Notes: a model not told the origin generated them from the sequence alone. A DNA stretch of 39,553 bases from Candidatus Epulonipiscium sp. (GCA_012524135.1 JAAYSE010000034.1:1-39553), one strand, 5' to 3'; positions 4,930 through 32,926 are shown, counted from the stretch's first letter. Numbers and translations are program-made.

Positions 4930-4973
4930 AAAAAAGCTTCTTTCATCCTTATCCATAAGGACGAAAAGAAGCT
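4930..4973 (-). terminator. T-box intrinsic terminator
   Basis: On the minus strand AGCTTCTTTTCGTCCTTAT pairs with ATAAGGATGAAAGAAGCT, followed by six T. The hairpin directly follows the T-box bulge sequence, as expected for the mutually exclusive terminator/antiterminator arrangement. Confidence 0.93.
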
Positions 4974-5200
4974 GATTTCCGCGGTACCACCTTTTTTCCT
5001 AGCATTTCCTTATACTAGGCTCTTGTTCACGGATAACGGACGTGTACCGTTTATACTTACTATCCTTTCGGTATAAAAACTCCAGAGCTACTTTCTGTCT
5101 CTTTTACCCTAGAAAATCTTCCAGCCAAGGATTTTCCTCTCTGTAGAAAAAGATAACATACTCCTCTCCTTCATCGTCTATGCTTATATTTTACTCCTTT
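4930..5200 (-). promoter_or_regulatory. Valine-specific T-box riboswitch
   Basis: The minus strand carries the conserved T-box AAGGTGGTACCGCG (about 4980-4993). Its TGGT is complementary to an ACCA tRNA end, matching the A discriminator of tRNA-Val. Stem I is recognisable from an AGAGAG-containing apical region with a GAAAATC/GATTTTC hairpin. On its 3' side, GAAAGTAGCTCTGGAG places the specifier codon as GUA (5089-5091), meaning valine. Downstream genes are the 79-residue membrane protein and valS. Uncharged tRNA-Val should stabilise the antiterminator and allow read-through. Confidence 0.95.
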
Positions 5201-5229
5201 ATAGTACAAAAATAATACTTATTTGTCAA
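5201..5229 (-). promoter_or_regulatory. Promoter of the T-box/valS operon
   Basis: A consensus TTGACA -35 (5224-5229) and a TACTAT -10 (5201-5206) are separated by exactly 17 bases on the minus strand, just before the T-box leader. The -35 overlaps the TGA stop (5226-5228) of the upstream coiled-coil gene. Confidence 0.9.
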
Positions 5230-6443
5230 GACACAAGTTCAGATTCTTCTATCTCTTCTAAACACTTATCTAGTACCTTTTGAGGTAATTCTGCTAATAA
5301 GACTTTATATTGTTTCAACTTTCTTAATTCTTGTTGAATTTCTTCTAATTGATCTTTCGTTTCTTCCCATTGCATTTCTTGTTTTTTATATTGTAAATTT
5401 AATTCATGTACTCGCTCTATGCGTTGATTCGGATCGAATAAAAACTCTATTTCTTGATCTAATGGTTCTTCATACTCTTCAAATGCTTCTTCAATAAATT
5501 CCCATAATTCTAACTCTAATTGACTTTTTTGGGAAGCGATTCGTTGATATTGCCTTCGTTGCTTCTGACCTTCACAATATTGACTCCATTGATATTCTAA
5601 CATATGTAAATTATGAACACCCAATTTATCATATTCATAATCTAAAAACCGAGTATAATGTACATATCTTAATTTTGTTTTGTTTAATAACTCGACTGCT
5701 CGATTTTGTAACCGACTATTTTTTTGTAATTCATAATGAATTCTACGTTGTAAAATATATAACCACGTTCCTACAAATAACGATATTAAGGCCAAAACGC
5801 TGCCAAAAGCAACAACAGATACATCATATAAAGAATAACATAATACTAATAACAAAGATATAAATGTTAACCCTATAACAAAGCCTATACTAATTTTACG
5901 ACTCACTACCAAAGTATGTTCCATTTTTTCTTTTGAAAATTGTAAATCGGCCCTTTCCCCTTCTAAATAATCAAGATCCATCTTAGCCTTTCTTTGTTTT
6001 TCTTCCATTTCTTCTATTTCTTTTAATAAAGATGGTATTTGTTTTTCGTATTGTTTTAATTTAGAATTTTTAACAGACGAATTTTGAAAATGACTTTTTA
6101 AATTTTCTCTTTCCTCTTCTGTTTCTTGTAATATACTCCATATCTTTTCTACCTTTTCTTTCTTTTCCTTTGAAAGTTGTTCATATATTACATAAATATT
6201 TTGTACGTTTTTTATTTCTTCTAGCTCTTGTTTTAATTCTTTTTTCTGCTGTTGCAATGATATAACATTTTCACATAAATGAGTTACATATGTCACATGA
6301 TCATATATTTCCTCTACTTCTGTCTTTCGCTCACTAAAAATATTGAATGCATCTTTTGCTTTATTCGAAAAAATATGAAAGTCTTCTTTCATTCGTGCAA
6401 GACGTTGTTTAAAAGTTTTCTTCGTATACTTTTGTTTTTTCAT
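5226..6443 (-). CDS. Coiled-coil protein with two central membrane helices
   Basis: A 405-residue protein of unknown function. A long N-terminal coiled coil (about 55-175) leads to two adjacent hydrophobic helices (about 185-203 and 211-231), then a second coiled-coil region (about 235-400). Both coiled coils therefore probably face the cytosol, with a short hairpin in the membrane. It is the last gene of the chaperone cluster, 126 bases after the TPR gene. The RBS is GAGGGAG. A possible extended -10 promoter lies in the gap, so it may be partly independently expressed. It could tether the Hsp70/GrpE-like proteins to the membrane; that is inference from position and architecture. Confidence 0.8.
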   Translation of the reverse strand: MKKQKYTKKTFKQRLARMKEDFHIFSNKAKDAFNIFSERKTEVEEIYDHVTYVTHLCENVISLQQQKKELKQELEEIKNVQNIYVIYEQLSKEKKEKVEKIWSILQETEEERENLKSHFQNSSVKNSKLKQYEKQIPSLLKEIEEMEEKQRKAKMDLDYLEGERADLQFSKEKMEHTLVVSRKISIGFVIGLTFISLLLVLCYSLYDVSVVAFGSVLALISLFVGTWLYILQRRIHYELQKNSRLQNRAVELLNKTKLRYVHYTRFLDYEYDKLGVHNLHMLEYQWSQYCEGQKQRRQYQRIASQKSQLELELWEFIEEAFEEYEEPLDQEIEFLFDPNQRIERVHELNLQYKKQEMQWEETKDQLEEIQQELRKLKQYKVLLAELPQKVLDKCLEEIEESELVS

Positions 6444-6487
6444 CTTACTCCCTCTTTTATTTATAATAAATACAAAATATATGTCTT

Positions 6488-6496
6488 ATTATATCA
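6488..6496 (-). promoter_or_regulatory. Candidate extended -10 promoter before the coiled-coil membrane gene
   Basis: The minus strand reads TGATATAAT, a perfect TATAAT with the TGn extension, 45 to 50 bases before the start codon. No good -35 is visible at 17 bases, which an extended -10 can tolerate. Confidence 0.45.
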
Positions 6497-6569
6497 AATA
6501 AAGGAGGGGAAAACTACCAAGTATAAACAATTTAAAAATAGTACCTGAAAATACAATGCCACGATATAT

Positions 6570-7742
6570 TTATAATTTTTCTAGAGGATTACGATATTTC
6601 TGAATCCATCCAAATAATATATCTTTTAATATTTCTTGATAATTTTTTATTTTTCCTTCTTTTTTCTGTACCCTCGCCCATTCTAATTTTACTGCATCAT
6701 TATTTGGATATAATTGTAATGCTTGTTGAATTATTTTACTAGCTTGATCCTTTTGATTGGTTGTACGATATAATTTTGATAACATAATAAAACCTTGGGG
6801 ATGAGGAGTAAACGTATGAAACGCTTCTTGAAGTAATTGAATCCCATCTTCACTTTTCTTTTGTTGTTCCAATATTTTCGCTTTTTCAATATAGTAACCC
6901 CAATTATGTTTAGAAGGTAGTTGCTCTATGACTTGCAAGGCTTGATCCACTTGATTTCGTTGTCGATACCAACGAGCTAAAGCTAAAAATCCTTCTATAC
7001 TATCTGAAAAAGTAATGGAACGTTGATAGGCTAAGTACGCTTCCTCTTCGTTCTCTAACTTCTCTTGTAACTGTCCATAATAATACCAACCTTCTCCACA
7101 CTCTTTAATAGAAAGTGCTTCTTTTAAAAATTCCTCGGCTTTTTTATATTCCTTTTGCTGTTGAGCTACAAAAGATAAATTAAACAATATCTTTATATTT
7201 TGAGGAGTTTTTGTATAAGCTGCAAATAAATATTGATAGGCCTTTTCGTATTGCTTTCTTTCCATATACGCAATACCTATATTATTTAATACTCTACTAT
7301 CCTCTGTATATTGTAATGCCTTTTCGTAATACTCAATTGCTTTTTCATACTCTCCTCTTCGAATATAAAGATCTCCTTTATCTTTCGCTTTTTCCCATTC
7401 ATGTTTATGTTCCCAACGGAAAATTTCTTTGCCCAGTAGATATAATTCTTTATCGCTAAAATAATCTATAATCCCTAAAAAATCAATATATTGTTTTGTA
7501 ATACACTTGCTGTTTTTTTCTTTTGTGCTTGCTATCTGGTTAGCAATACTGGGAAGATCTAACTCTTCTCGAATCCAATCTTCTAATTTCCCCATGATAA
7601 AATCATCTATCGATTCTTTCCAATAATAATAACAATGATAATATAATTCTTCTAAAGAATAAATATTCTTTTGTGTGATCTCAAAATGATAAGGATATTT
7701 TATTTTATTAGGCGATATACTAGGCAATACTTTGGTATACAT
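6570..7742 (-). CDS. TPR-repeat protein of the Hsp70 cluster
   Basis: A 390-residue soluble protein. The N-terminal 110 residues form a separate helical region with a pattern like FxxGKLExWIxEEL (about residues 48-61), whose family I cannot name with certainty. From about residue 115 to the end it is built of TPRs (for example GDLYIRRGEYEKAIEYYEKA). It starts 18 bases after the Hsp70-VWA gene, with AAGGAA upstream, so it is co-transcribed with it. TPR proteins are common Hsp70 partners and could serve as adaptor here. There is no signal peptide or membrane helix. Confidence 0.85.
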   Translation of the reverse strand: MYTKVLPSISPNKIKYPYHFEITQKNIYSLEELYYHCYYYWKESIDDFIMGKLEDWIREELDLPSIANQIASTKEKNSKCITKQYIDFLGIIDYFSDKELYLLGKEIFRWEHKHEWEKAKDKGDLYIRRGEYEKAIEYYEKALQYTEDSRVLNNIGIAYMERKQYEKAYQYLFAAYTKTPQNIKILFNLSFVAQQQKEYKKAEEFLKEALSIKECGEGWYYYGQLQEKLENEEEAYLAYQRSITFSDSIEGFLALARWYRQRNQVDQALQVIEQLPSKHNWGYYIEKAKILEQQKKSEDGIQLLQEAFHTFTPHPQGFIMLSKLYRTTNQKDQASKIIQQALQLYPNNDAVKLEWARVQKKEGKIKNYQEILKDILFGWIQKYRNPLEKL

Positions 7743-7760
7743 AACCTTAGTTCCTTTCTT

Positions 7761-9839
7761 TTATAAACGTACCAATTCAACAATACTATATGCTATATTA
7801 TCAAGAATATCGGTAAATTTCTCTTGTAAATCATAATATTTTCCATCTGGTTTTGTTAGAGGATCGTAGGCTTCAATACTTTCTCGTTCTTTTCTAGCTA
7901 CTACATAAGTAGTAATATGATTGTCTTCTAACATTTGACAGAGTTCACTCACATATTTACCACTATGAGTGGGTATATGCGGAGGAGCATCTGTAATTAG
8001 AATAAATATATTGTTCCCATTTTTTTCAACATAAGATGTTTGTAATAATTGAATACCTGTTTCAAGCGCATCTAATGAAGATTCAGGAATATCTCCTCCA
8101 TAAGTTCTAGGAATGTTTTTCACTTGTCTTTGGAATTTTTCAGCATCATTTGTAAAATTATAAACACTTGGTTTTTCTCCTTCTCCTAAATCACCAAAAC
8201 CAATGAGACCTAATTGAAATTCTACTCCTTTACTTCGTAAAATATTAGAAAACTCAATGGCGCGATCTTTTACTCCATGAATATACGCATCCATACTTCC
8301 TGTTGTATCAATCAAAAATACAATATTCATATTTTGTGGAGTTTTCATCACTTCTTCTTTTCTAGGTGGTGGTAATACCTTCGTTCGATCAAATTCTGCT
8401 CGTTCCTCTTTTCCTGTAGATAAGTCTTTTACATACACTTCAAAGAGGTTATTTTCATCAATCGCATACGTAATTTCTAATTGAGTAGTACCTTTTAATC
8501 CCTCTAACATAACACTTCCAATATACTTTTTATCTTCTTCGTTGTTTTGTTCCCATTGATAAACATCTACTTGTACTGAAGAAGCTCCAGACATACTAGC
8601 AAAATTACGATCTGAAACTTTAGCAGGAATCGGACTTCCCATAGGAATAATCGGAATCAATTTACGTTCCATCGTATGAATATTTACAATCGCCTCGGTA
8701 CCAAAAATTTGACGACTAATTTGTCCAACTTTTACATTACTATTAGGCAGGTGAATAAGATAATTATAAATAGCTGCTCCCATTGCTACACTTTTTGCTG
8801 GATCTGTTGCACGATACGGCTCTTTGATATAACCAGCTACCATTCTTTTTACCATAGGTATTAAAGTAGATCCTCCTACTAAAATCACCTTAGAAATCTC
8901 ATCGGGTTCCTTAGAAGCTCTATGTAACGCTTCTTTAATAATCTCACGGCTTCGATCTACATATTTTCGAATAAATCCTTCAAACTGTTCTCGCGTGATT
9001 TCCATGATTAAATTTTTAGGTACTCCTTCATGAATCAATAATGGATGAATACGTATCATTGCTTTATGAGTACCTGATAACTTTTTCTTTACTTGTTCCG
9101 CTTCTTGTTTTAATTTTTGTAATACTCGTTTTTTCTCTATAACTTCTAAATCATTAATATTAATATTGGTATCTTCATAAAATTTTTCTTTCATCCATTG
9201 AATCAATTCGCTATCAAAATCATCTCCGCCGAGGTTCATATCCCCTACATCGGATAATTCTTGAAAAATCTCTTCTCCATTTTCATCTTGAGACACTTTT
9301 AAAACACAGGCATCAAAGGTTCCTCCGCCTAAATCATATACTAATAAAGTTTGTGCATATCCTTGACGATAACCATATTCAATAGCTGCTGCTAAAGGTT
9401 CTGATAAAAGATAAACATTTTTAAAACCAGCTAATTCTCCTGCCCGTTTTGTTGCATAAATTTGACGATCGTTAAAATAAGCAGGATGAGTAATGACTAC
9501 CTCTTCAAACGTTTCTCCCGATTGTTCTTCTGCTGCTTTTTTAAGTTTTTTAAGAATTTCCGAACTAATTTCTTCCGGTGTTTTTTGAATATCACCTACA
9601 GAAATTGGGTCATTATTACCCATATAACGTTTTATGGAGATCATTGTTTGTTCTGGATAAATAATAGCTCCTGCTTTCGCTTCACTTCCTACAATAATCC
9701 CTTCTTCTCCATAACATACTACAGAAGGAAGTACTTCTTCCATTCCATCTATCTTAACTACTTCTACTTCATCATTTTTATCATTATAAATGACTGCAAT
9801 GGAATTGGTAGTTCCTAAATCAATTCCTAAATAAGCCAT
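7761..9839 (-). CDS. Hsp70-VWA fusion protein
   Basis: A 692-residue fusion. An Hsp70 nucleotide-binding domain occupies about 1-370: GIDLGTTNS at 5-13, the SIKR lysine at 70, YDLGGGTFD at 168-176, VGGST at 321-325. A beta substrate-binding domain covers about 375-495. The helical lid is missing and a von Willebrand A domain (about 503-692) takes its place. The metal site looks intact: DTTGS at 511-515, a Thr near 579 and an Asp at 617. ATP-cycle residues also look intact. I chose the ATG at 9839 because GGAGGGCGAATAAT precedes it by the usual spacing; a longer reading would add 27 residues before the Hsp70 start that overlap the upstream gene. It follows the upstream Hsp70 stop by a single base, so coupling is likely. 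Protein binding by the VWA domain is expected from the family; the partner is unknown. Confidence 0.93.
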   Translation of the reverse strand: MAYLGIDLGTTNSIAVIYNDKNDEVEVVKIDGMEEVLPSVVCYGEEGIIVGSEAKAGAIIYPEQTMISIKRYMGNNDPISVGDIQKTPEEISSEILKKLKKAAEEQSGETFEEVVITHPAYFNDRQIYATKRAGELAGFKNVYLLSEPLAAAIEYGYRQGYAQTLLVYDLGGGTFDACVLKVSQDENGEEIFQELSDVGDMNLGGDDFDSELIQWMKEKFYEDTNININDLEVIEKKRVLQKLKQEAEQVKKKLSGTHKAMIRIHPLLIHEGVPKNLIMEITREQFEGFIRKYVDRSREIIKEALHRASKEPDEISKVILVGGSTLIPMVKRMVAGYIKEPYRATDPAKSVAMGAAIYNYLIHLPNSNVKVGQISRQIFGTEAIVNIHTMERKLIPIIPMGSPIPAKVSDRNFASMSGASSVQVDVYQWEQNNEEDKKYIGSVMLEGLKGTTQLEITYAIDENNLFEVYVKDLSTGKEERAEFDRTKVLPPPRKEEVMKTPQNMNIVFLIDTTGSMDAYIHGVKDRAIEFSNILRSKGVEFQLGLIGFGDLGEGEKPSVYNFTNDAEKFQRQVKNIPRTYGGDIPESSLDALETGIQLLQTSYVEKNGNNIFILITDAPPHIPTHSGKYVSELCQMLEDNHITTYVVARKERESIEAYDPLTKPDGKYYDLQEKFTDILDNIAYSIVELVRL

Positions 9840-9840
9840 A

Positions 9841-11481
9841 TTATTCGCCCTCCAATACTGTTGTTGTAAAACGACTAGGATCAAAAGTTTCTTTAAAACC
9901 ACTAGGTGGATACAAATCACTAAATCCTAAATCTTCCACGCTTCCTTTTACAAGTCCACCTTCTTCTTCTACCAATAAAGTTACTTGTAATTTCGTTTTG
10001 CCTGAAGGCCTCTCTGGTAATCCTTTGATATGAACTTCTCCTATGAGCTTACAATGTTCGATCGTATCTTCTTTATCTATTCGTTCTAATATTTTTAATT
10101 CTAATGTAGTCATATCTTGAGGATCTGTTCCTGCTAGTGTAAATATATGACTTTTTTTTGCAAGCGTATAGGGAGTTCCGCGACGAATCATGGTAAAAAA
10201 AGATTTTCTATGTCCATGATCTACTTCTAAACCGATATCATGAGGAACTGTTACTTCAAATTCTACATCTACTTTTTCTGTATCCATATCTGGATGAGTT
10301 AAAAGTCCCATTTTCATCGCTGCATAATACGTAGCACCTAAGGAAATATCTAATGCGGGTCGTTCGGATGTATAAATCTTATTTTCTTCATTAAAAATAC
10401 CAATGAGCATATCTTTGACCCAAGGCATTTGTGAAGATCCTCCCTCAAGTAACACTCGATCAATATCCGTTGCTACTAGAGCTCCTGTATAAGCTTCACG
10501 AAGAGCTTTTAAAACAAGTTTTCTGGTTGTTTCAATAAAATCATGGATCCAATCTTCCATTTGTTCTCTTGTAACTTGTTCAACAAAAGGTGGTATACAA
10601 AAGGTAAATGGAATTCGAAAAGCTTTTACACCAGATAAACGTTCTTTCGTTTCTTTTGCCCTCATAATCAGCTCTGCTTGATTTTCTTTTGTAATTTCTT
10701 CTTTTACTTGTCCTGTCTTATTTTGAATATAGTTGTAGCATTGATCAATAATAGTTTCATCAATATTATCTCCGCCATGATAAGCTTCTCCACCTTCACT
10801 AATTACTTGGAGTTTTATTTTTTTGTCATTTTTTTCTACCACGTGAAAAATAGTAATATCTAACGTTCCCCCACCAAAATCAAAAACCATAATTTTTTCA
10901 TCTTGATTTAATTGATGTCGAAAATTATAAGCTAAAGCAGCTGCTTTTGGTTCTTCAATTAAACAAATTAATTTTTCTTTTAGTCCTGCTAACTCACAAG
11001 CTCGAACTGTTGCTTTTTTAGCACTATCATCAAAATCATAGGGTACCGAAACTACGCAACCAATAATTTCTGCTTTTGGATTTATATTTTGACAATGGGA
11101 TATTAATTCTTGTAAAATTTTTGCTGAAATTTCTTCTGGCAAATATTCTTTTCCTCCAAGATTTATGGTTTCATTCGTTCCCATTTTTCGTTTAATTGAA
11201 CGAATCGTTGTTTCTGGATAAATCTTCATAGAACGATATGCTTCTTCTCCAATGACCCATTCTCCTTTTTCTCCTTCTGCTCCGGATCGATATTGTACTA
11301 CGGAAGGTAAAGGAACTTTACCAAAACCATTACTAATATCGATGGCTTCTGGTCTTTTATTACGATTGTCCCAATAACTAATAACAGAATTGGTAGTTCC
11401 TAAATCAATACCTAAAATATACCATTCTTCTGGTAAATCCCCTTGATCTTCGATCTGCTTTTTATATTCTTCCCAAGTCAT
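9841..11481 (-). CDS. Lidless Hsp70 with N-terminal MTWEEYKK tail
   Basis: A 546-residue Hsp70-family ATPase. A 20-residue tail (MTWEEYKKQIEDQGDLPEEW) precedes the nucleotide-binding domain: GIDLGTTNS at 24-32, catalytic-type lysine in SIKR at 97, DFGGGTLD at 201-208, GGSS at 347-350. All key ATP motifs are intact. A beta substrate-binding domain follows, but the protein ends at about the point where the helical lid would begin, and no EEVD-like tail is present. The start at 11481 was chosen because AAAGGTGAG lies just upstream and a similar MSWKRYRK tail starts the neighbouring paralogue; the longer reading overlaps the previous gene. It is not the classical dnaK, which normally sits with hrcA, grpE and dnaJ and keeps a lid. 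Confidence 0.92.
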   Translation of the reverse strand: MTWEEYKKQIEDQGDLPEEWYILGIDLGTTNSVISYWDNRNKRPEAIDISNGFGKVPLPSVVQYRSGAEGEKGEWVIGEEAYRSMKIYPETTIRSIKRKMGTNETINLGGKEYLPEEISAKILQELISHCQNINPKAEIIGCVVSVPYDFDDSAKKATVRACELAGLKEKLICLIEEPKAAALAYNFRHQLNQDEKIMVFDFGGGTLDITIFHVVEKNDKKIKLQVISEGGEAYHGGDNIDETIIDQCYNYIQNKTGQVKEEITKENQAELIMRAKETKERLSGVKAFRIPFTFCIPPFVEQVTREQMEDWIHDFIETTRKLVLKALREAYTGALVATDIDRVLLEGGSSQMPWVKDMLIGIFNEENKIYTSERPALDISLGATYYAAMKMGLLTHPDMDTEKVDVEFEVTVPHDIGLEVDHGHRKSFFTMIRRGTPYTLAKKSHIFTLAGTDPQDMTTLELKILERIDKEDTIEHCKLIGEVHIKGLPERPSGKTKLQVTLLVEEEGGLVKGSVEDLGFSDLYPPSGFKETFDPSRFTTTVLEGE

Positions 11482-11497
11482 TGGCTCACCTTTCCTT

Positions 11498-13072
11498 TCA
11501 TAATTGAATTTCAAATTCCTTGACATAATCGGTAGCTGGAAAGAAATCTCCAAACCCACAATCTTTTATTATTCCCTGTATTTGAAAAGGATTTTTCATC
11601 TGACAACAAACTTCTAATTTTGTAGCTCCTTTGGGGCGAACTGGCAATCCTTTCAAGGAAACTTCACCAAGCTCTGATTCTTCTCCTTTTTCATTTCTTT
11701 TTAATATAAATAATTTTAATTCTTCTGTTTTAGAATGTTGAGTGATTAAAGAACAAACTGGTTGTTTCTGCCACCAAAAAGATTTCTTTTCAATAAAGGA
11801 TATAAATTGATCTCCTCGTTTTGTCTTCACTTTAAGACCTATATCAAAAGGTACACGATGTACATCTTCCAGTTGAATTTGTAATGGATCTATTAAACCT
11901 AAATAAGATGCAGCAGCCCAACAAGCTCCTGCAGAAATTTGTCCTTCCGAAAAAGGAGAATGAATGATAGAAATATAAGGAAATTTTTCTTTTATCCTAT
12001 GACATACCCAATCCATCTCAAAACCTCCACCAGATAAAACAATTTTGGTAATATCTTTTTCTGTAAGTGTTTTATCAATGGTTTTTGATAACGTATCTTC
12101 GATGAATTGTTCTAATTTTTCTTTCATCGGAGCAATAATAAATTCTAATTCTTGGCTTTGTATATTTTTTTGGAAAGCGGGATGTACAAAATTAAAATAA
12201 ATTTTCATCGATTTTCCTTGATAATAGTGTTGTAGTAACATTGCCTTATTTTGATATAATAAATTATCAATTTGATGTAATACCTCTGATTGTAACTGAT
12301 CAGATAACTCACCTGTATGTTCACAATATATTTGAATAAATAATTGTCTTAGTTTTTGATCAAATTTTTGTAAACCTAGAGACAAATCAAATAATGAAGA
12401 ATATACTTCTCCCTGTATTTTTTCTTTCTCTGTTTGAATTTGGAAAATTCCACTTCGTATCGCCTCATTACCATAATCTAGATAAAGAATAGTTTCTTGT
12501 TTTTCTAATTGTCTTTGATGATACAAGGAGTGTAAAATACATTCTCGGTCAGGTAGCATAGTAATAAGTTTTTGATCTAATCCAGCTAAAGAAAAAGCAC
12601 GATAAAATTCTTCCATTGCTAACTCTGAAAAATATGTAGGAGTAGCTACTACCATTCCTATGATTTCTGCATTGGGATTAATGTTTTTACATATGTCCAC
12701 CAGTTCTTGAAGATAACGACTCAGTAAAACAGGAAAATTCATTGGCTTTCCAGCAATATCAATCCATTCTCCATATCCTAATCGTTTTATAGGATCATGA
12801 ATAGTAATATCTTCAAAAAAACCTTTGTTAAGCAAAGCATATTCCCCATATACCCATTCTTTATTTTCCGGAATATATTGTAAGACAGTAGGAATCGAAG
12901 GTTTGCCATATCCACCGCTAACATCAATCCATTCTGGCTGATGACGATTTACATTCCAATATGAAATAACAGAAGTTTGATTTCCTATATCTATTCCTAA
13001 AATAAACTTACTTTCATCCTCTAATGGTTTATCCAGAGAAGTAAACATTTTTCTATACCGTTTCCAACTCAT
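11498..13072 (-). CDS. Degenerate Hsp70-like protein (probable pseudo-ATPase)
   Basis: 524 residues, collinear with the next Hsp70 in the operon and sharing its N-terminal tail pattern (MSWKRYRK) and its lidless C-terminus. The ATP motifs are eroded. Phosphate-1 reads GIDIGNQTS (26-34) instead of DLGTTNS. Phosphate-2 reads LDYGNEAIRS (about 198-207) instead of DLGGGTFD. The adenosine motif reads SGGGFEMDW (347-355) instead of GGSS. The LGG-type motif after strand beta is also lost, while the IKR lysine (96) remains. The frame is intact over the whole length, so it is a maintained protein rather than a pseudogene. The start at 13072 has RBS AGAGGG, which lies across the stop of the GrpE-like gene. 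It may bind nucleotide poorly and act as a regulator or exchange partner of its intact neighbour; that is inference. Confidence 0.88.
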   Translation of the reverse strand: MSWKRYRKMFTSLDKPLEDESKFILGIDIGNQTSVISYWNVNRHQPEWIDVSGGYGKPSIPTVLQYIPENKEWVYGEYALLNKGFFEDITIHDPIKRLGYGEWIDIAGKPMNFPVLLSRYLQELVDICKNINPNAEIIGMVVATPTYFSELAMEEFYRAFSLAGLDQKLITMLPDRECILHSLYHQRQLEKQETILYLDYGNEAIRSGIFQIQTEKEKIQGEVYSSLFDLSLGLQKFDQKLRQLFIQIYCEHTGELSDQLQSEVLHQIDNLLYQNKAMLLQHYYQGKSMKIYFNFVHPAFQKNIQSQELEFIIAPMKEKLEQFIEDTLSKTIDKTLTEKDITKIVLSGGGFEMDWVCHRIKEKFPYISIIHSPFSEGQISAGACWAAASYLGLIDPLQIQLEDVHRVPFDIGLKVKTKRGDQFISFIEKKSFWWQKQPVCSLITQHSKTEELKLFILKRNEKGEESELGEVSLKGLPVRPKGATKLEVCCQMKNPFQIQGIIKDCGFGDFFPATDYVKEFEIQL

Positions 13073-13085
13073 ATTTGTACCCTCT

Positions 13086-14966
13086 TTATCGTGCAGCAAT
13101 CACATTGGCTCTTAATAGTACTTGCCCTTGATATCGATAACCCGTATTGATACATTTTATAATCTCACCCTTTTGAAAGTTTTCATTCTTCTCTGCTAAT
13201 AACACCTCTTGCTCTCTGCCATTAAATTTTTCATGAGGTTTAGGACTAATAAAATTAATCCCATATTCCTCTAAAGCCTCATATAATTGCTTTGTTAAAT
13301 CATCTATTTGTATTACATATTGTTGAATAATTTCTTCTGTTTCTTCACGTATACGAGAGATAGAATAGTGTAATACTTCCTCAAAAGTACTGATTTCAAA
13401 CAATAACTGATCTTTAAGATGATTGCTTATAATCTTATCCCATTGTTGTTTTGATTGTTCTTTCCATCGGGTCATTTTTTCTTGTATAAGCTTAGCATAA
13501 CCTTCTTCTTGATCTTTTTTTAATATACTTTCTAAGGATGTATCCAGATCAATAGGATCTATAGAATAACTTTTATCTTCTTCCACCCATTTTTTATATA
13601 AAAAAATGGGGATCTCTTTATCTTCTTTGTCTTTTTTTAAAAAAGGATACACTAGGTCTCCTAAAAATTCTTTTATTTGTATTTTCCATTCTTCTTGTTC
13701 TTCTTCTATACTTTGTATTTTAATAGCTAATGTTTCATTAATTCCAGCAAAAATATCTTTTTGCTTTGTTGCCAATAAAAACTCCTCTTGTTCTTGATAA
13801 TAGGTTTGAAATTGATGAAAAGATGTAAGTATCTTTTCCATCATGATTTGATACTGTTCTTTTTCTTGTTTCATACTATCTTTCCAACAATTATATTCCT
13901 TTTGCTCCCATTGCATTAAAAATTCTATATATAATTTTATCATACCATGCCAAGAATCCTGAAGTTGCTTGATCACTTCATGATATTCACTAAAGCGTTC
14001 TTCCACTCTTTCTTGAGGTATGGTCTTCATGTCCTCTACATACTTTTGTATACCTTCTTGTTGGATATACTGCTCAAAGCAAGTAAAATTGAGAAGTTTT
14101 TCCTTTGGCTCTTCCGTATTTTTTAAACCTTGTTCCCAAAAATAAACTTTTTTCTCTAACTGATCCCCTAACATCTCCATTTTTTGAAGCAATGGTATTT
14201 CCTGTTCTATCTTTTTCTTTAATACATTAATCTGAGTATTACAAATAGATTCTAATGTATTTTTTTGATTTTGAACGAATTCATAATATAGATGAAGAGT
14301 AGGTCTTTGATCAAAATCGTCCATTTGATTCATTCCATTGACTGTTACCTTTTGATAAAGAGTATATAAGATAGAACCAGTCTCCTGCCAAACCTGTTGA
14401 TACAAATGTTGAATTTGTTCTAGATATATTTCTTTTGTATTTTGTCCATCATATTGAATCCATTGTTTTTGTAATTTTGTTCTCTCTTGTGATTGTAACC
14501 AATATTGAATAAAATCTTGTTCAATTTGTTGTAATTGAACAATAAAACTTTGTTTGGTTAAAGAGATATACTTTTCTTTTTCTAGTTGTATAGGATTGAT
14601 CCCTGGTTTTCCATGTTCATAAAACTGCTGGTATTCAGAAAGCAAAATACTCATAATACCATTTAAAACATCTATGGTTTCTTGTTCTTCTACTCTTTCT
14701 AATCCTGTTTTTTGTTTCCTATATTCATCATTGATTTTTTTATATTCATAAAACAACTGTTCTAAAAATATAAAAATCTCTGCATCATAAAGAGCCAATC
14801 GATGATCTTTATGCAAATGATGAAGAATCTTAATCATTATTTTTACTCGAATGCTAAAAAAACATTCCTTTATTTCCTGTATCATTATTTGATCAAAAGC
14901 CTGTATCGTCTTTTCCCAAGCTTTTATCGTTTCTTCCTTTTGTTTTGAATCAGCAAGCCAGAACAT
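13086..14966 (-). CDS. Giant coiled-coil protein with GrpE-like C-terminal domain
   Basis: 626 residues, rich in Glu, Gln and Lys and almost wholly helical, with coiled coil over much of residues 1-570. The last about 27 residues read GEIIKCINTGYRYQGQVLLR and ANVIAAR. This matches the end of GrpE (G-x-I/V...GY...VLRxAxVxVA), the beta-wing that contacts Hsp70 and opens its nucleotide cleft. Ordinary GrpE is about 180-200 residues, so this is over three times longer. It sits between two Hsp70 genes (20 bases after the first, 13 before the next), which supports a role as nucleotide-exchange factor for the cluster. RBS GGGAGGAG precedes the ATG. The GrpE link rests on a short region and should be treated as probable only. 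Confidence 0.75.
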   Translation of the reverse strand: MFWLADSKQKEETIKAWEKTIQAFDQIMIQEIKECFFSIRVKIMIKILHHLHKDHRLALYDAEIFIFLEQLFYEYKKINDEYRKQKTGLERVEEQETIDVLNGIMSILLSEYQQFYEHGKPGINPIQLEKEKYISLTKQSFIVQLQQIEQDFIQYWLQSQERTKLQKQWIQYDGQNTKEIYLEQIQHLYQQVWQETGSILYTLYQKVTVNGMNQMDDFDQRPTLHLYYEFVQNQKNTLESICNTQINVLKKKIEQEIPLLQKMEMLGDQLEKKVYFWEQGLKNTEEPKEKLLNFTCFEQYIQQEGIQKYVEDMKTIPQERVEERFSEYHEVIKQLQDSWHGMIKLYIEFLMQWEQKEYNCWKDSMKQEKEQYQIMMEKILTSFHQFQTYYQEQEEFLLATKQKDIFAGINETLAIKIQSIEEEQEEWKIQIKEFLGDLVYPFLKKDKEDKEIPIFLYKKWVEEDKSYSIDPIDLDTSLESILKKDQEEGYAKLIQEKMTRWKEQSKQQWDKIISNHLKDQLLFEISTFEEVLHYSISRIREETEEIIQQYVIQIDDLTKQLYEALEEYGINFISPKPHEKFNGREQEVLLAEKNENFQKGEIIKCINTGYRYQGQVLLRANVIAAR

Positions 14967-14986
14967 ACAACTCCTCCCATTCTGCC

Positions 14987-16669
14987 TTATTCGTATAACT
15001 CATCCACTGAAAGTTCTGTTTCTACTCCATCTGTACTCATACTTTTAGCCATTACTTTCAACATATTATCTTGTCCTACATGAAAAATAACTTTTACTTT
15101 TTCTTCTCCCTTAGAAGCTGCGGGTATTCCTCGTAAGCTCGTTCCCGCTAAACGTTTCATTCCTTCTTGATATACAAAATCTTTTTCTTTCTCTGTACCA
15201 CTAGGTTTTGTATTTTCATACACAACAATAGCCATACTCGTTACATGATCAAAATTAGTAGTGAGTAATTCATCTGCTTCAATCGTTAAACCTTCTTTAG
15301 GTATGTCTAAGCCTTCTTCTACAATTTCCATAAAACGTCGACCTGCAATTTCTAGTCCTAAAGGATGAATTGTTTTTTCATGAACGATAGGTCCTCGTAC
15401 TGTTGGCATCATAATCATATTACAATAGTATGCTGCTCCTCGTGAAATACTTAAAGCAGGACTCATTTTAGATTTAAAAGGATCTTTATTAAATTTTTCT
15501 TTGATTTTTTCATGAATTCGTGGCATAGCAGAACTTCCGCCTACCAAAAAGATTTCATCAATATCACTTTCTTGTAAAGCTGCAGCTTTTAAACATTCAT
15601 CAACCGTTTCCAATGTTTTATCAATTAAATCTTCTACGCTTTTACCTTCCATTTTTTCAACTATTTCTGGTTTATCCCCTAATGAATTCACTCGCTTATG
15701 ATGTAAAAAAGCCTCTTTAGAAATTTCCATATTGATATTGATCATCTTCGGTTCTTGAAGAAAAGGTGCTAAGACTACTTTGGTAGATTTCGCAGTAGAT
15801 AAACGTTCTTTTGCTTGAGTTGCTACCTGTTGTAGACGAACTAATGCTGTTTTCTTTTGTCGTTTTGATACTCCATCATCTACCTCTAGATCAAAAAGAT
15901 CTATTTCTCCATTTGTCATATTTTTAAACTCTTCATAAATTAAATCCATCATCATTTTATCGATATCATTACCACCTAAATGATTATCACCATAAGTACT
16001 TAAAATACTAATATTGGGTTCATTTTCTTCATCCATCTCGATATTTAAAATACAAGCATCAAAAGTTCCTCCACCAAAATCATAGACTAAAACTTTTTTA
16101 TTTTTTCGTTCATTTACAGCATACGAAATGGCTGCTGCAGCTGGTTCCAATCGAAGATATATATTTTCTTCATCAAATCCTGCTAATTTAGCTGCTTCTT
16201 TTGTCATCTTTTTTTGCTTGTCCGTAGAGTTAGCTGGAACTGTAATAACACAACCCGAAAACTCTCCTGCAATTCCTAATTCTTCCTGTACATATTCATC
16301 TGCTTTTTGTTTTAAGTATCCTAAAATTTCCCCTGCAATTTGTTCTGGTTCAAATTCATATTCTTTATCTTCTACTTGTATTTTTATTTTTTGACCGGAC
16401 CCAAGAAGTCGTTTTATAGATAATACCGTACTTTCCGGATAAATAATCGCTGCTTCTTTTGCTTGAATTCCAAAAATACGGGATAATTTATTTGGATCTT
16501 CTAAATCAATTTCAAATTGAATAGCCGTTGGAAACACATTGCTTCCGTCAATAGGAATGGTATGCACATCCCCTTCTTTAAAATCATAAACACTAATCAC
16601 AGAATTAGTAGTTCCAAAATCAATTCCTAAAAACATTCCTCTTTCCACATCTAAACCTAATGTAGCCAT
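14987..16669 (-). CDS. Lidless Hsp70 (DnaK-like) ATPase
   Basis: 560 residues. The nucleotide-binding domain covers about 14-420, with GIDFGTTNS (15-23), SIKR lysine at 86, DFGGGTFD (197-204), LGGNDID (231-237) and VGGSS (376-380), all intact. A segment around 325-345 (RVNSLGDKPEIVEKMEGKSV) is an insertion relative to standard DnaK. A beta substrate-binding domain follows and the protein stops without a helical lid. RBS AAGGAGGATAAAAT precedes the ATG perfectly, so the short MATLGLDVERG lead is retained. It is preceded by the 909-residue helical-repeat gene (28-base gap) and followed by the GrpE-like gene, giving an Hsp70/exchange-factor pair. Confidence 0.93.
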   Translation of the reverse strand: MATLGLDVERGMFLGIDFGTTNSVISVYDFKEGDVHTIPIDGSNVFPTAIQFEIDLEDPNKLSRIFGIQAKEAAIIYPESTVLSIKRLLGSGQKIKIQVEDKEYEFEPEQIAGEILGYLKQKADEYVQEELGIAGEFSGCVITVPANSTDKQKKMTKEAAKLAGFDEENIYLRLEPAAAAISYAVNERKNKKVLVYDFGGGTFDACILNIEMDEENEPNISILSTYGDNHLGGNDIDKMMMDLIYEEFKNMTNGEIDLFDLEVDDGVSKRQKKTALVRLQQVATQAKERLSTAKSTKVVLAPFLQEPKMININMEISKEAFLHHKRVNSLGDKPEIVEKMEGKSVEDLIDKTLETVDECLKAAALQESDIDEIFLVGGSSAMPRIHEKIKEKFNKDPFKSKMSPALSISRGAAYYCNMIMMPTVRGPIVHEKTIHPLGLEIAGRRFMEIVEEGLDIPKEGLTIEADELLTTNFDHVTSMAIVVYENTKPSGTEKEKDFVYQEGMKRLAGTSLRGIPAASKGEEKVKVIFHVGQDNMLKVMAKSMSTDGVETELSVDELYE

Positions 16670-16697
16670 ATTTTATCCTCCTTTTGTATACTTGTAT

Positions 16698-19427
16698 TTA
16701 CAATAGTATACCTTTTTTCTCTTGTTGATAAAAAGAAAACCCTAATTCAATATATTTTTCTACTTCTTCAAACTGAAACAACGAATGATAGATTAATCCT
16801 TGATTAATAACATCATATGAGGTCTTTTTCCCTTGGACCTTCGTTAATTGCTTCGAATGATAAGTGCCTTCCTTAAGAATGATAGATGGTGTTTTAGAAG
16901 CAGCTATATAATAATGAAGTATTTCTCCATAAAACACTGGTAACATAACCGTATATATCCCCATACCAACATATTTCATAGGAACCTTCTGATTGTTCTT
17001 TGTTTTTTGATTTTTATAATAAAACCATAATTCTTCATTTTTAAAAGAATTACATAAAAAAGAAATGTTCTTTTCTATATACGAAAGATATTGCGTTTTG
17101 TCTTGTATCTTTTGTATCCAAGGAAAATGAATATTATTTTTAATTAATATAGGAAAAACTCTATCCAATACTTGTGATCGTTTAGGGGAATATACTTTTT
17201 CTTCTCCATATAAGTAAAGTAACGCATATCCTAATAAAGTTTGATTCGAATCATTTAAATATAACTCTTCTAATATATGAATTGTTCCCAATATAGGTAG
17301 TTTTTCTTCATGTAAAATTTGATAGGTACAATAGGTTGCAAATGCAAAATCTAAAACTGTAGGAGAATCCTTGTTATACATTCTGATAAAAATTTCTTCT
17401 ACTGTAGAACTCCATTGTCTCGTCCAAATACTTTGTTGAACAATTTTTCTTTCCAATTGATCTATATGAATATCTTGTATATCGAAAGTCAATAATTTTT
17501 CTCGTAGTACTAATAGTTGATCGATGGTTCCATCAAAATAATTCTGTAAATCATCCATCCAAATTTCTTCCATAATACCTTTGTTCATACTCCATAAATA
17601 AAGAAACAGTACATAAGATGAACAGATTTTTTGCTGCATGCAATTTTGAATCAAGTGCATCATCTCTTGAGTAGATACCCACTCTATTCCCATAGTAGAT
17701 AACCAAAAAAGTGCTTTTTCAACTTCACCCGTATAAATCAAAGTTCTAATTCCTTCTTGACGCATTTTTATTGGTAATTGTTCAAATGGTAATTTACTAT
17801 AAAATTGATTTGCCTTTTCATATCTTTTTTCTTTTGCATAATATATTGCTAACCATTGATTCATTTCATAACAAAAATCTTTTGATATTTCATTCATTTC
17901 TACTGTTTCTTCTAAAAAAGAAATTTCTTGAGCGGAAAGGTTAGATTTTTTCATATATGCTTTCGCTAATAGAATACGAAAAGCTAAAGAATCATATCCT
18001 TGTTCCATATAGAACTGTAAAATAGTATCCGGAATAGGAGAAATAATTTTGGTAATAATAATCTCTGGTGGACATACTTCTCCATTTTTTCCTATACATA
18101 ATACCGTGGAAGGTAAGTCAGAAAGCGAAATAAAAGCTTTTTGATTATATACTGGAATGTGATTTATAGTTGCTTCTTCAGAACTTTGAATAAATATAGT
18201 GTCTATATCGGAAGAAAGAACCTTTATTTCGTATAAACAAATAAAATCCCATAAAAAATGTAAATCTTCTTTTGAAAATTTTTGATCTTCCATTAACTTT
18301 TGATATAAGGTACCATAGTATACGCCAGTTCTTCCTTGAGAAAGACATTTTTTTGTAAAATCAATAATGTCCTCTTGTTCTTCTTTTGATAACCAGTCAT
18401 ATTGTGCCTTATTTTGAATTAAAATATGATATAAAAAAGCTTTATATTCCATGGGAAGAATCGAATTCATACACTGACTTTGAATAAGAGACATCGGTAA
18501 TGATTCTTCTCCTGCCCAATAAGCTGCTTTTATATATAGCTGATCTATTTTATCAATATAGATTTGTTCTTCCCATGCTTTTTGATAAATCTCTAACGCT
18601 TGCTGATCTATTTTTTCATGATTAATATATAGCTTACATAATCCATGAAGAATGGGTTGTGAATGAGTTTCTTTATACCAATGATATAATTTATTTTCCC
18701 AATTACCCATCCATTCATATTGTTCTTGGGGTTGTTGTAAAAACCAAAAACAAAATTTTTCAACCACTTCTTTAGTAGTAAAACCATACCTCATTCCCCA
18801 GTGAATGGCTTGTAATAAAATAGGATTCATATCATTTAATAACGAAGGCTTGCTCATGAATAGCATATTTAACTCTAAATATAATAAAGGACTTCTACAA
18901 TGATGTTCATAGGCTTTATATAAAATATCTAAACTCTTTTCTTCCTCTTCTTGTATCATACGAAGCAATCGAGCATATAAACATAATAAAAAAGGTTCTT
19001 CTGAAAATTGTGGAAAAGCTTTATCTAGTTTTTTCCAACTTCTCCTAACTTGAAAGGATTTTCCGATGTAAAAGGATAATAAGCACTGCAAGTATAAAAC
19101 AATGATATACGTTTCTGGTTTTTCAATAAAAAGAGATTTTTTATATTTTTGAATGGATTCCAATTGTGTTTCTGCTTGTTCAAATTCATTTCCATCAATG
19201 AATAGTTGAATCAATAATAACCTCAAATATATATTGGCTGGGTCCCATTGTATTAATTGTTTAGCTTCTTCTATTGCCTGCAATATATAATATGGATAAT
19301 GAAGAACTTGCATATTAGCTGCTATCCAATACCTTCCGATGCGACAATATCGTCGTTTCCAATTTATTTGATCAAATGGACCTTGCTTTTCACATTGTTC
19401 CATCATATATTCTATTTGTTGCTTCAT
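16698..19427 (-). CDS. Large helical-repeat protein, DUF5717 C-terminal-like
   Basis: 909 residues made mainly of TPR-like helical repeats. A C-terminal beta-rich segment of about 75 residues (from about 815) contains YVGMGIYTVMLPVFYGEILH and YYIAAS. From memory this resembles the C-terminal part of DUF5717 proteins, which in Lachnospiraceae lie beside Hsp70-like genes; I could not check this. No membrane helix or signal peptide is evident. It starts 51 bases after the beta-domain gene with its own GGGAG site, and is followed by a lidless Hsp70. A scaffold or client-binding role is inferred from the repeats and the neighbours only. Confidence 0.8.
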   Translation of the reverse strand: MKQQIEYMMEQCEKQGPFDQINWKRRYCRIGRYWIAANMQVLHYPYYILQAIEEAKQLIQWDPANIYLRLLLIQLFIDGNEFEQAETQLESIQKYKKSLFIEKPETYIIVLYLQCLLSFYIGKSFQVRRSWKKLDKAFPQFSEEPFLLCLYARLLRMIQEEEEKSLDILYKAYEHHCRSPLLYLELNMLFMSKPSLLNDMNPILLQAIHWGMRYGFTTKEVVEKFCFWFLQQPQEQYEWMGNWENKLYHWYKETHSQPILHGLCKLYINHEKIDQQALEIYQKAWEEQIYIDKIDQLYIKAAYWAGEESLPMSLIQSQCMNSILPMEYKAFLYHILIQNKAQYDWLSKEEQEDIIDFTKKCLSQGRTGVYYGTLYQKLMEDQKFSKEDLHFLWDFICLYEIKVLSSDIDTIFIQSSEEATINHIPVYNQKAFISLSDLPSTVLCIGKNGEVCPPEIIITKIISPIPDTILQFYMEQGYDSLAFRILLAKAYMKKSNLSAQEISFLEETVEMNEISKDFCYEMNQWLAIYYAKEKRYEKANQFYSKLPFEQLPIKMRQEGIRTLIYTGEVEKALFWLSTMGIEWVSTQEMMHLIQNCMQQKICSSYVLFLYLWSMNKGIMEEIWMDDLQNYFDGTIDQLLVLREKLLTFDIQDIHIDQLERKIVQQSIWTRQWSSTVEEIFIRMYNKDSPTVLDFAFATYCTYQILHEEKLPILGTIHILEELYLNDSNQTLLGYALLYLYGEEKVYSPKRSQVLDRVFPILIKNNIHFPWIQKIQDKTQYLSYIEKNISFLCNSFKNEELWFYYKNQKTKNNQKVPMKYVGMGIYTVMLPVFYGEILHYYIAASKTPSIILKEGTYHSKQLTKVQGKKTSYDVINQGLIYHSLFQFEEVEKYIELGFSFYQQEKKGILL

Positions 19428-19478
19428 TCCATTTCTACTCCCTTATCCTTCTTAAAATTTCTTCTTTTCCTACTCCAA

Positions 19479-20678
19479 TTATATTTCAGGTCCTACCATA
19501 ATGGTAAACTCTTTTTTTATTCCTTTTTTATTGACTACTGTTTGAACTATAATTTGTGTCTTATGAAAAATACCTTGAGAAAAAAAAGCTTTATAAAGAA
19601 ATTGATTCCACTTAGTAAAATGAATAGTAAATGGAATACTAGCTTTTTGAGAAATTAAATATTTTTTAGCTTCAAATTGAACCCAAGAAGCATTAGGTCG
19701 AATATGAATGACTAAATCTTCTCCAGTATTATTAATAATCAAAATTTCTCCTTTATCTTCGTTATAAAAACTCTTTTGAGAAATTTGAATATCTAATGTT
19801 GGATTTTTGATGCCTGTTACTTCATATTTTAACCGTTGATAAGGAGTGTCTACAAAAATATAACCACACTGATACCTTTTTTTAAAAGCATTAGGAATAA
19901 TACGATAAGGAATATATCCTCTACCTTGTTGGTCCAATTCCTCACTATTAATCTGATCTTTCCAAAGTTGAATCCAATCTACATTCGTTGTTATAATACC
20001 TTCTGTATAACCCCAATGTTCTTGTTGGATTTCTACTACATATTCCAAATCTCTCTTTTGCCCTTCTGTAATACGAATATATGTATCTGTATTAATAAGA
20101 CTCCATTGTACTGGCTTTTTCCATCCACCACCTACTAGAAATGATTCTAAGGCTCGGTCAGCGGATTGATTCTTCACATATTGATATAAAGAAATCCAGG
20201 AAGAAAAATCTTGTTGAAGCCAGTGACTAAATTCTTTTGAATGAAAGTAATCCATCGCTTCTGACCAGTGATTTTTTGCATAATTAGCAAATGTTTCTAA
20301 ATCATGCCACTCTCTTTTTTCTATATTAAAACCTTCACTCTCTTCTATTATAATCCAAATAGGAATTACTTTTTCCCCACCATTAGATAAAATGGTAAAG
20401 GAACATTCATACATTTGTGATACATTCATCCCTTTTGTATCAATACGATACATACATACCTGCTTATTACCTTCCCACTGATCTAGATCACAGGTAAGAT
20501 AGGGATGAGAAGATAAAATGAAACCTTGTAACTGACCTCCACCTTGATTGTCAATAGTAAAAGCTCCTGTATATATAGTCGAAGGAGAAAGAGATAGATA
20601 TAATTCTTCCGTAGATACTTGAAGAATAGGTAATTTTTCTTCATAATTAATATCTTGTATTTTATTAGTAAAATCCAT
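19479..20678 (-). CDS. Beta-domain protein, DUF5717 N-terminal-like, first gene of the Hsp70 operon
   Basis: 399 residues and first in the operon, with RBS AAGGAG. Residues about 20-115 form an Ig-like beta sandwich (LSLSPSTIYTGAFTIDNQGG, then SNGGEKVIPIWI). A helical stretch follows (about 125-190: FANYAKNHWSEAMDYF), then further beta repeats to the end (about 200-399). This order matches what I recall of the N-terminal part of DUF5717 proteins, so together with the following 909-residue protein it looks like a DUF5717 protein split into two genes. There is no signal peptide, so it is presumably cytosolic. The function is unknown. Conserved spacing and separate RBSs argue against a recent frameshift. 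Confidence 0.8.
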   Translation of the reverse strand: MDFTNKIQDINYEEKLPILQVSTEELYLSLSPSTIYTGAFTIDNQGGGQLQGFILSSHPYLTCDLDQWEGNKQVCMYRIDTKGMNVSQMYECSFTILSNGGEKVIPIWIIIEESEGFNIEKREWHDLETFANYAKNHWSEAMDYFHSKEFSHWLQQDFSSWISLYQYVKNQSADRALESFLVGGGWKKPVQWSLINTDTYIRITEGQKRDLEYVVEIQQEHWGYTEGIITTNVDWIQLWKDQINSEELDQQGRGYIPYRIIPNAFKKRYQCGYIFVDTPYQRLKYEVTGIKNPTLDIQISQKSFYNEDKGEILIINNTGEDLVIHIRPNASWVQFEAKKYLISQKASIPFTIHFTKWNQFLYKAFFSQGIFHKTQIIVQTVVNKKGIKKEFTIMVGPEI

Positions 20679-22939: not shown

Positions 22940-23314
22940 TTACGCTAAAGGATAAGCCATTGTAGTCATTAAAGTCATTTCTGCTTGACTCGTATCCATT
23001 CTACTATGTTGAACAATAATTGGCTCATCACTATCAATTTTTATAGCATAAGGTACACCTATAGGTATTCTTTCTCCCCATTGATCTTGAATTTGATCTA
23101 ATCGAATATGATTCGTTCGTTTTGCGGCACAAATGGCAACAAAATCTTCCATCGGTTCTCTATCTTCAAAATAAATACTTATTTTAACATTTGCATCCCT
23201 TTCCCCAATATTAAGTACACAAATTGCTTCATGACTCACAAAATCTCCGTTGCTTTTTACTGGTAAAAATCCATCTGGTATAATCCATCTTTTCTTTCCT
23301 AAAGTATTCATCAT
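22940..23314 (-). CDS. ASRT-family small-molecule-binding protein
   Basis: 124 residues with the conserved pattern of the Anabaena sensory rhodopsin transducer family: WIIPDGFLP, VSHEAICVLN, IYFEDREP, RTNHIR, GVPYA, PIIVQHSRMDTSQAEM and TTMAYP. The family adopts a beta-sandwich fold. In non-phototrophs it has been proposed to be a carbohydrate-related small-molecule-binding domain (established suggestion for the superfamily). No rhodopsin gene is present here. The ATG overlaps the stop of the preceding glycosidase gene (ATGA), so the two are translationally coupled. A second ATG follows at once and has better spacing from GGAGG. Here it may bind a sugar released by the operon's enzymes or act as a small isomerase or sensor; that is inference. 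Confidence 0.88.
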   Translation of the reverse strand: MMNTLGKKRWIIPDGFLPVKSNGDFVSHEAICVLNIGERDANVKISIYFEDREPMEDFVAICAAKRTNHIRLDQIQDQWGERIPIGVPYAIKIDSDEPIIVQHSRMDTSQAEMTLMTTMAYPLA

Positions 23315-25854: not shown

Positions 25855-25883
25855 TTAGCCTACTCCTTTATACATTCATTACT

Positions 25884-27869: not shown

Positions 27870-27995
27870 TATAACCTCCATAAAATCTTTTTTATTTCTA
27901 AAAATTTTATTGACTTAAATATTTTATAAGTAACATATTTTTTGCATTTCTTTCATCATTAATCTTTCAATTTCACAAATAACTTTTTACCAATA

Positions 27996-28010
27996 TGATA
28001 ATTATTATCA
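27996..28010. promoter_or_regulatory. Perfect Fur-type 7-1-7 palindrome
   Basis: TGATAATTATTATCA exactly matches the TGATAATNATTATCA box described for Fur in Bacillus. It lies 35 bases after the YesU-like stop and about 127 bases before the GH42 start. It may be a real operator or an accident of AT-rich sequence; no Fur-regulated iron gene is nearby. Confidence 0.4.
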
Positions 28011-28045
28011 AATCATTAATTGAATTTACAGTATTATCCTTCGGC

Positions 28046-28705: not shown

Positions 28706-28708
28706 GCC

Positions 28709-31294: not shown

Positions 31295-31432
31295 TATTCT
31301 AACCTCTCCTTTTTTAAATTCATATATATATCACTTTTATATTCTCTAAAAATCATCTCTATTTTTTAATTAAATCTTCTTCTATCAATTTGTTTAAATA
31401 TAATATATCTACCTATATGAATTTATAAAATT

Positions 31433-32914: not shown

Positions 32915-32926
32915 TACCATTCCCCC

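Follow-up and report, generated by a model that had tools for sequence, protein, structure and literature searches.

What would a bacterium do with an operon that carries four Hsp70-type genes and a GrpE-like gene, and none for a J-protein? Hsp70s are thought to need J-proteins for useful ATPase cycles and a lid for holding their clients. The operon lies in a stretch of 39,553 nucleotides from Candidatus Epulonipiscium sp. (GCA_012524135.1 JAAYSE010000034.1:1-39553), called the window below, and comprises nine open reading frames (ORFs) on the minus strand, g1 to g9 from upstream to downstream, which span positions 5226-20678. Made from the sequence of the window, the original prediction had described a nine-gene set for a dedicated chaperone machine, possibly linked to the membrane through its last gene, with the Hsp70s as a signalling or assembly switch. 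In this study I find the chances about even that g1-g8 form one dedicated cytosolic Hsp70 assembly, which would act as a J-independent switch on a scaffold of TPR and beta-sandwich proteins. The bolder claim, that a J-protein-independent machine of three lidless ATPases, a dead Hsp70, a dedicated GrpE and a solenoid scaffold represents a third mode of Hsp70 action, is offered tentatively, as falling somewhat short of an even chance. The nine genes are the following (aa, amino acids).

19479..20678, minus strand: g1, N-terminal part of DUF5717, 399 aa (PF18984 positions 6-298, 6.7e-51)
16698..19427, minus strand: g2, rest of DUF5717, 909 aa (PF18984 positions 298-872, and PF18983)
14987..16669, minus strand: g3, lidless Hsp70, predicted to be ATPase-competent, 560 aa (PF00012, 6e-75)
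13086..14966, minus strand: g4, long helical N-terminal part, ending in a GrpE-like stalk and beta head, 626 aa (PF01025, 3e-13)
11498..13072, minus strand: g5, putative pseudo-Hsp70 (DUF5716_C), 524 aa (PF18980, 3e-27; PF00012, 4e-19)
9841..11481, minus strand: g6, lidless Hsp70, predicted to be ATPase-competent, 546 aa (PF00012, 3e-60)
7761..9839, minus strand: g7, Hsp70 with a vWA domain replacing the lid, 692 aa (PF00012, 5e-95; PF25106 VWA_4, 6e-11)
6570..7742, minus strand: g8, TPR protein, 390 aa (TPR_2, 1.3e-24)
5226..6443, minus strand: g9, coiled-coil membrane protein with one or two predicted transmembrane segments, adjacent to the others but part of a g9-valS pair

The gaps between them, in gene order, are 51, 28, 20, 13, 16, 1, 18 and 126 bases, just as had been stated for the nine genes (1-51 bases, the last 126). 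As start codons of g5, g6 and g7 the ATGs at 13072, 11481 and 9839 were chosen by their fit to the lengths of relatives; alternative, longer reading frames begin at TTG or GTG within the preceding gene.

The Hsp70-fold proteins and their probable partners

That four proteins of Hsp70 fold are encoded, all without the helical lid, is borne out by the PF00012 matches and by the number of residues beyond the position of E. coli DnaK 507, where the lid starts. This number is 8-9 in g3, 16-22 in g6, 2-12 in g5 and about 203 in g7, all of them belonging to the vWA domain, compared with 131 in DnaK, 112 in HscA and 82 in HscC. In an alignment with E. coli DnaK, HscA and HscC and the organism's own DnaK, the phosphate-1, phosphate-2 and adenosine motifs as well as K70, E171 and T199 are kept by g3, g6 and g7 in every relative, and the phosphate and adenosine motifs of g3 are intact in 14 of 14 sequences. 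The relatives of g5 have lost the equivalents of T11, K70, E171 and T199, a loss that had been overlooked. The count of four Hsp70s thus holds for the fold, but only g3, g6 and g7 look ATPase-competent, with g5 a probable pseudo-ATPase.

The substrate-binding beta domains are clearly retained in g3, g6 and g7. In g7 the vWA domain, which the original prediction had missed, sits exactly at the position of the lid. Its DTTGS motif and the aspartate of its LITD motif are invariant in 11 relatives from at least six families, with conserved threonine positions in between, in agreement with the residue pattern of a functional metal ion-dependent adhesion site (DxSxS/DxTxS...T...D). Close relatives of this vWA domain (35-39% identity) are found in proteins of Planctomycetia and Chthonomonas (L138, L139, L140), those from Planctomycetia with a transmembrane N-terminus. 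A second Hsp70-vWA system in these taxa was considered and rejected, as the matches are stand-alone or differently fused vWA domains without Hsp70.

In a tree with a small outgroup set of four sequences, g3, g5, g6 and g7 group in a single clade (support 100) to the exclusion of DnaK, HscA and HscC, and g5 is the sister of g6 (bootstrap 100). All four operon Hsp70s descend from one ancestor. No orthologue of g6 was detected outside the order to which the organism belongs in 300 genomes of the phylum, where the best non-operon matches reach at most 186 bits and are DnaK-sized Hsp70s, mostly of about 600-645 aa.

In DnaK, R167 and Q378 meet the aspartate of the HPD motif of the J-domain, together with D393 and the hydrophobic linker (PMC8215388, PMC7289447). 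In g3, g6 and g7 of all families sampled, R167 has given way to Y, F, H, S, C or G, N170 to L, E or S, and Q378 invariably to Y; D393 is replaced in all but one sequence of the active operon Hsp70s, and the VLLL(DV) linker is lost. While the alignment of the linker is uncertain in such divergent Hsp70s, R167, N170 and Q378 are at well-aligned positions of the nucleotide-binding domain (NBD), and E. coli HscA and HscC keep all three.

The content of the genomes is in line with these replacements. A domain search found no J-domain among the proteins of g1-g9, and the hrcA-grpE-dnaK-dnaJ operon, which the original prediction had suggested looking for, lies on contig C136 of the same genome, apart from the operon studied here. 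This rules out a housekeeping chaperone operon, as had been supposed from the lack of a J-protein and of a CIRCE element. No CIRCE element was found in the window at up to 3 mismatches, again as predicted, and control of the operon by CIRCE/HrcA was accordingly rejected. The only J-domain gene detected in this genome is located inside the dnaK operon, though at 93% completeness a gene may have been missed. Two closed, single-contig genomes with the vWA-Hsp70 and DUF5717 (G037, in which the full g1-g8 order was read, and G044) have exactly one J-protein each, of DnaJ size; other operon-bearing genomes have two or three.

These observations bear most directly on the alternative that survives best, namely that the operon encodes an ordinary specialist chaperone which has a GrpE of its own and relies on the housekeeping DnaJ, much as HscC does on DjlB/DjlC. 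Intact ATPase motifs would fit this explanation, as would the DnaJ encoded in every genome tested and the general need of Hsp70s for J-proteins (PMC7289447). I nevertheless regard it as unlikely, given that in every family sampled g3, g6 and g7 have exchanged the three contact residues which HscA and HscC retain, and that neither lid nor hydrophobic linker is left.

The presumed exchange factor g4 begins with a long, all-helical part and ends in a helical stalk and a beta head with the GrpE signature. Apart from the Pfam match, its PDB sequence match is GrpE (4ani), and nearly all top PDB fold matches of its AlphaFold model are GrpE entries, with probabilities up to 1.00; the ranking is correct, even though the E-values are only 0.03-1, because most of g4 consists of the long helical extension. 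The earlier assignment of a probable GrpE-related protein is therefore upheld by sequence and modelled fold. Residues at the GrpE-signature loop are kept in g3 and g7, whereas the loop is deleted in HscA, HscC and g6. In addition, g7 keeps K55-E267, the salt bridge across the cleft by which DnaK slows the release of ADP (PMC8215388). On the strength of these residues, g4 probably acts on g7, and perhaps on g3.

The remaining proteins look like a scaffold. As members of DUF5717 (PF18984, PF18983) and DUF5716 (PF18980), g1, g2 and g5 score above the curated Pfam cut-offs; these entries carry no functional name, and a literature search on DUF5716 or DUF5717 found no relevant paper. The original prediction had not noticed that a single DUF5717 protein is split between g1 and g2. 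Other families have it as one fused polypeptide of about 1190-1330 residues, and the two halves are hence expected to touch. The AlphaFold model of g2 (mean predicted local distance difference test score 86.8) is a long alpha-solenoid of the TPR type with two inserted beta-sandwiches, and its best PDB matches are Ski3, Ctr9, IFT-A and other TPR scaffolds. For g1 a beta-sandwich or Ig-like stretch is predicted, whose beta domains gave no structural match to a known family, together with a short helical motif. That this motif may be common to g1 and the N-terminus of g8 is suggestive (hhalign E 5e-4, with a probability of only 31%).

Conservation and the reduced form

Families are labelled f1, f2 and so on; the order is presumably Lachnospirales, and f6 Lachnospiraceae. 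DUF5717 is present in 228 of the 392 genomes of the order, nearly always in single copy, and in none of about 235 sampled genomes of the class outside the order (the nine positives in the sample are all order members). The vWA-Hsp70 occurs in 90 of the 392 genomes, 89 of which also have DUF5717. Outside f6 it is found in 89 of the 98 DUF5717-positive genomes, and most of the other nine are incomplete.

After removal of recognised duplicates, g3-g4-g5-g6-g7 run on one strand in 34 loci from families f1, f4, f11, f22, f23, f24 and others. The gut and sludge bacteria that keep the order g1-g8 belong to about a dozen families within the one order, with Defluviitalea phaphyphila, Petrocella, Vallitaleaceae and metagenome-assembled genomes of 'Candidatus Epulonipiscium' among the named relatives. 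The original prediction would have fallen had the gene order not been conserved in relatives; it is conserved in these loci, and f6 has a reduced set. In the f5 genomes from termite gut the cluster is often dispersed (e.g. L072, L078, L116), with g6 and g7 most often still together. In one f4 genome (G003; L030 5642-8821, also L135), g7 and g8 each read as two overlapping or adjacent ORFs, which reflects either sequencing frameshifts or an early decay of the system.

The locus in f6 consists of a fused DUF5717, the DUF5716 pseudo-Hsp70, the TPR protein (g8, which is found in the full as well as the reduced operon) and often g9, followed by valS; g3, g4, g6 and g7 are missing. None of the 130 DUF5717-positive f6 genomes has a vWA-Hsp70, and by scores and lengths the Hsp70 genes of 40 f6 genomes look closer to DnaK and its other relatives than to g3 or g6. 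In an RpoB tree (with one unusable sequence, from G017, and poor support within the second half of the order) f6 is the sister of f4, which has the full operon, with support 100, and families with the full operon are found in both halves. This topology shows the reduced form to be secondary: Lachnospiraceae-type genomes appear to have lost the ATPases and kept the scaffold and the putative dead Hsp70.

A proposed nucleotide switch on a scaffold

How could such a set of proteins work? DUF5717 (g1 and g2) and the TPR protein g8 would form the scaffold, with the dead Hsp70 g5 as a structural subunit and g3, g6 and g7 as ATP-driven switches. The active Hsp70s would bind and release fixed partners, either the scaffold itself or a client held by it. 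Nucleotide exchange by g4, most likely on g3 and g7, would be the control step, and the nucleotide state would open and close scaffold contacts instead of folding clients. The vWA domain of g7 may use a metal ion to recognise an acidic residue in a partner. Without lid, hydrophobic linker and J-contacts, the active Hsp70s would not be expected to run the folding cycle of DnaK, and the missing lid should make peptide binding weak and fast, a property more useful in a protein-protein switch than for holding unfolded chains. The physical complex, the assignment of partners, the switch function and the selection of an acidic residue by the vWA domain are what I infer from the data above.

Several observations weigh against such a switch. 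As the linker alignment is uncertain in these divergent Hsp70s, the housekeeping DnaJ could still act on them in an atypical way. The break-up of the cluster in f5 argues against a strict need for co-transcription, and f6 keeps the scaffold without any active operon Hsp70. The argument from GrpE contacts draws on a handful of aligned positions and leaves g6 out. On balance, a dedicated, non-housekeeping machine with its own GrpE-like protein stands as originally proposed, with its gene order conserved, and its use as a signalling or assembly switch is favoured in a J-free form by residues and genome content; the membrane link is the part that is not supported (see below). If the J-independent switch is real, it would add a third use of Hsp70s to the folding of clients with J-proteins and to polymerisation of the actin type. 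By keeping Hsp70 catalysis and GrpE while discarding lid, linker and J-contacts, the operon would serve to test whether an Hsp70 can work simply as a nucleotide switch. It also allows DUF5716 and DUF5717, both widespread among the genomes of the order, to be interpreted for the first time in terms of structure and evolution, the former as a dead Hsp70 and the latter as a TPR solenoid, and the reduced form in Lachnospiraceae-type genomes amounts to a natural deletion experiment.

Less probable than a borrowed DnaJ is a role in conflict, i.e. an NTP-dependent defence system of the GAP1-N2 'second theme' kind of Kaur et al. 2020. The toolkit is strikingly similar, with Hsp70, GrpE, beta-sandwich and TPR proteins and a reduced Hsp70, plus vWA (PMC7159879), but the operon contains no GTPase or GAP1. 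GAP1-M is absent from the genome and occurs in 7 of 116 genomes of the order, and four GAP1 loci examined from positive genomes are without relatives of g1-g8. Together with PADLOC matches that are only weak and partial, this led me to reject a defence system. Moreover, the operon is single-copy, vertically inherited and stable in synteny, unlike patchy defence islands; for these reasons a function resident in the cell seems more likely to me than a mobile one in defence. Some ORFs near the GAP1-M loci of the order (L203-L206) resemble conflict components of the GTPase or tubulin type.

A machine linked to the membrane through g9 was part of the original prediction, and I rate it as lower again in probability. 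The protein is a coiled coil with transmembrane segments, and its gene follows g8 directly in f1, f4 and f22 and lies next to g8 in f6. However, a profile search over 196 genomes of the order detected g9 in 121, one copy in each, and some of these are from families without DUF5717 (f2, f10, f13, f14, f21); in f2, f14 and f21 it is located just upstream of valS. In Defluviitalea-type genomes (f24) g8 is the last gene of the operon, and g9-valS lies at a distance of 28-150 kb. No transmembrane segment is predicted in g1-g8. Thus g9 and valS are a conserved pair, and g9 belongs with valS and is not specific to the operon, which had gone unnoticed. Since g9 is single-copy in operon-less genomes and paired with valS, the system proper is g1-g8 and, having no predicted membrane segment, cytosolic. 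Of the proposed nine-gene set, g9 is adjacent (gap 126) but outside the core, and anchoring by g9 as a core feature was rejected on account of its distribution with valS. A functional tie of g9 to the system is conceivable in f6, where g9 stays right behind g8.

Least probable is a polymer-forming system, in which the lidless Hsp70s, having the actin fold, would assemble a filament with the scaffold: membership of the Actin/Hsp70 superfamily, MreB profile matches and several paralogues including a dead one, as in hetero-oligomers, are compatible with it, whereas the substrate-binding beta domains of g3, g6 and g7 and the GrpE-like protein fit use as Hsp70s rather than as filaments.

A single upstream promoter, as had been claimed, could not be demonstrated, with promoter-like matches at background (93 found vs. 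87.7 expected). A scan of the minus strand gave no credible internal terminator, in agreement with the original prediction; the lone weak terminator-like site, at 9622-9606, is at chance level. Two features lie downstream of g9.

4954..5183, minus strand: T-box leader of valS (RF00230, 122.8 bits), just downstream of g9 and outside the system
2003..4645, minus strand: valS, syntenic neighbour, with a valyl-tRNA synthetase orthologue at the same place in relatives

The valS gene is probably transcribed from its own unit, controlled by the T-box leader. In many families a frequent arrangement is g9-valS-folC-like-zinc-ribbon/TPR gene (L189-L193, L195, L197, L198, L200), and genes resembling spoIIAA and the sigma-F operon are found close to the g9-valS arrangement. 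Elsewhere in the window, positions 22940-32920 hold a cluster of the pectin/rhamnogalacturonan type (rhamnosidase-like GH106, GH42, DUF1961, PcRGLX-like lyase, solute-binding protein). The cluster also includes, at 22940-23314, a gene for a protein of the 'Anabaena sensory rhodopsin transducer' (ASRT) family, although this bacterium would not be expected to have a rhodopsin.

Comparison with known systems

With the hrcA-grpE-dnaK-dnaJ set the operon has in common the NBD and the beta part of the substrate-binding domain of Hsp70 and a GrpE-type exchange factor. It differs in having four Hsp70 paralogues and in lacking a J-protein, the lid, the canonical linker (VLLLDV) and CIRCE, and the nucleotide-binding motifs of a housekeeping DnaK are present in g3, g6 and g7 but not in g5. 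HscA and HscC are, like the operon proteins, short and dedicated bacterial Hsp70s, and g6 shares their deletion of the GrpE-signature loop. However, both retain lid and J-contact residues and work with J-proteins of their own and no GrpE, whereas the operon has a GrpE-like gene and no J-protein, and its Hsp70s neither keep R167, N170 and Q378 nor group with HscA or HscC in the tree. A MoxR-vWA ternary system would have a MoxR-type AAA+ ATPase beside the vWA protein, and no AAA+ match was found among the nine proteins. By these tests, the operon is not a DnaK, HscA, HscC or MoxR-vWA system.

The nearest published pattern is the Hsp70/GrpE theme of the GAP1-N2 systems, which comprises Hsp70, GrpE, sometimes an Hsp70 without peptide-binding domain, and FNIII domains fused to DnaJ or TPR (PMC7159879). 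The operon resembles it in the combination of Hsp70, GrpE, a reduced Hsp70 and a beta-sandwich protein linked to TPR, and a common toolkit is plausible. It differs in the absence of GTPase, GAP1 and DnaJ domain, in the fusion of vWA to Hsp70 and in its vertical inheritance within one order. The operon may thus work partly like a GAP1-N2 system, but it is not a member, because the defining GTPase and GAP1 are absent from it. In CoCoNuT type III restriction systems (PMC11090510), Hsp70-like NBDs and substrate-binding domains with weakened ATPase motifs are likewise found with vWA and coiled coils in one operon; the McrB/McrC, nuclease and RNA-binding modules of those systems are not present here.

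DUF5716 is identified here, from its residues and its place in the tree, as a pseudo-Hsp70 and the sister of g6. The operon as a whole is a variant of the Hsp70-GrpE machine, and there is a real chance that a J-independent mode of action makes it more than that.

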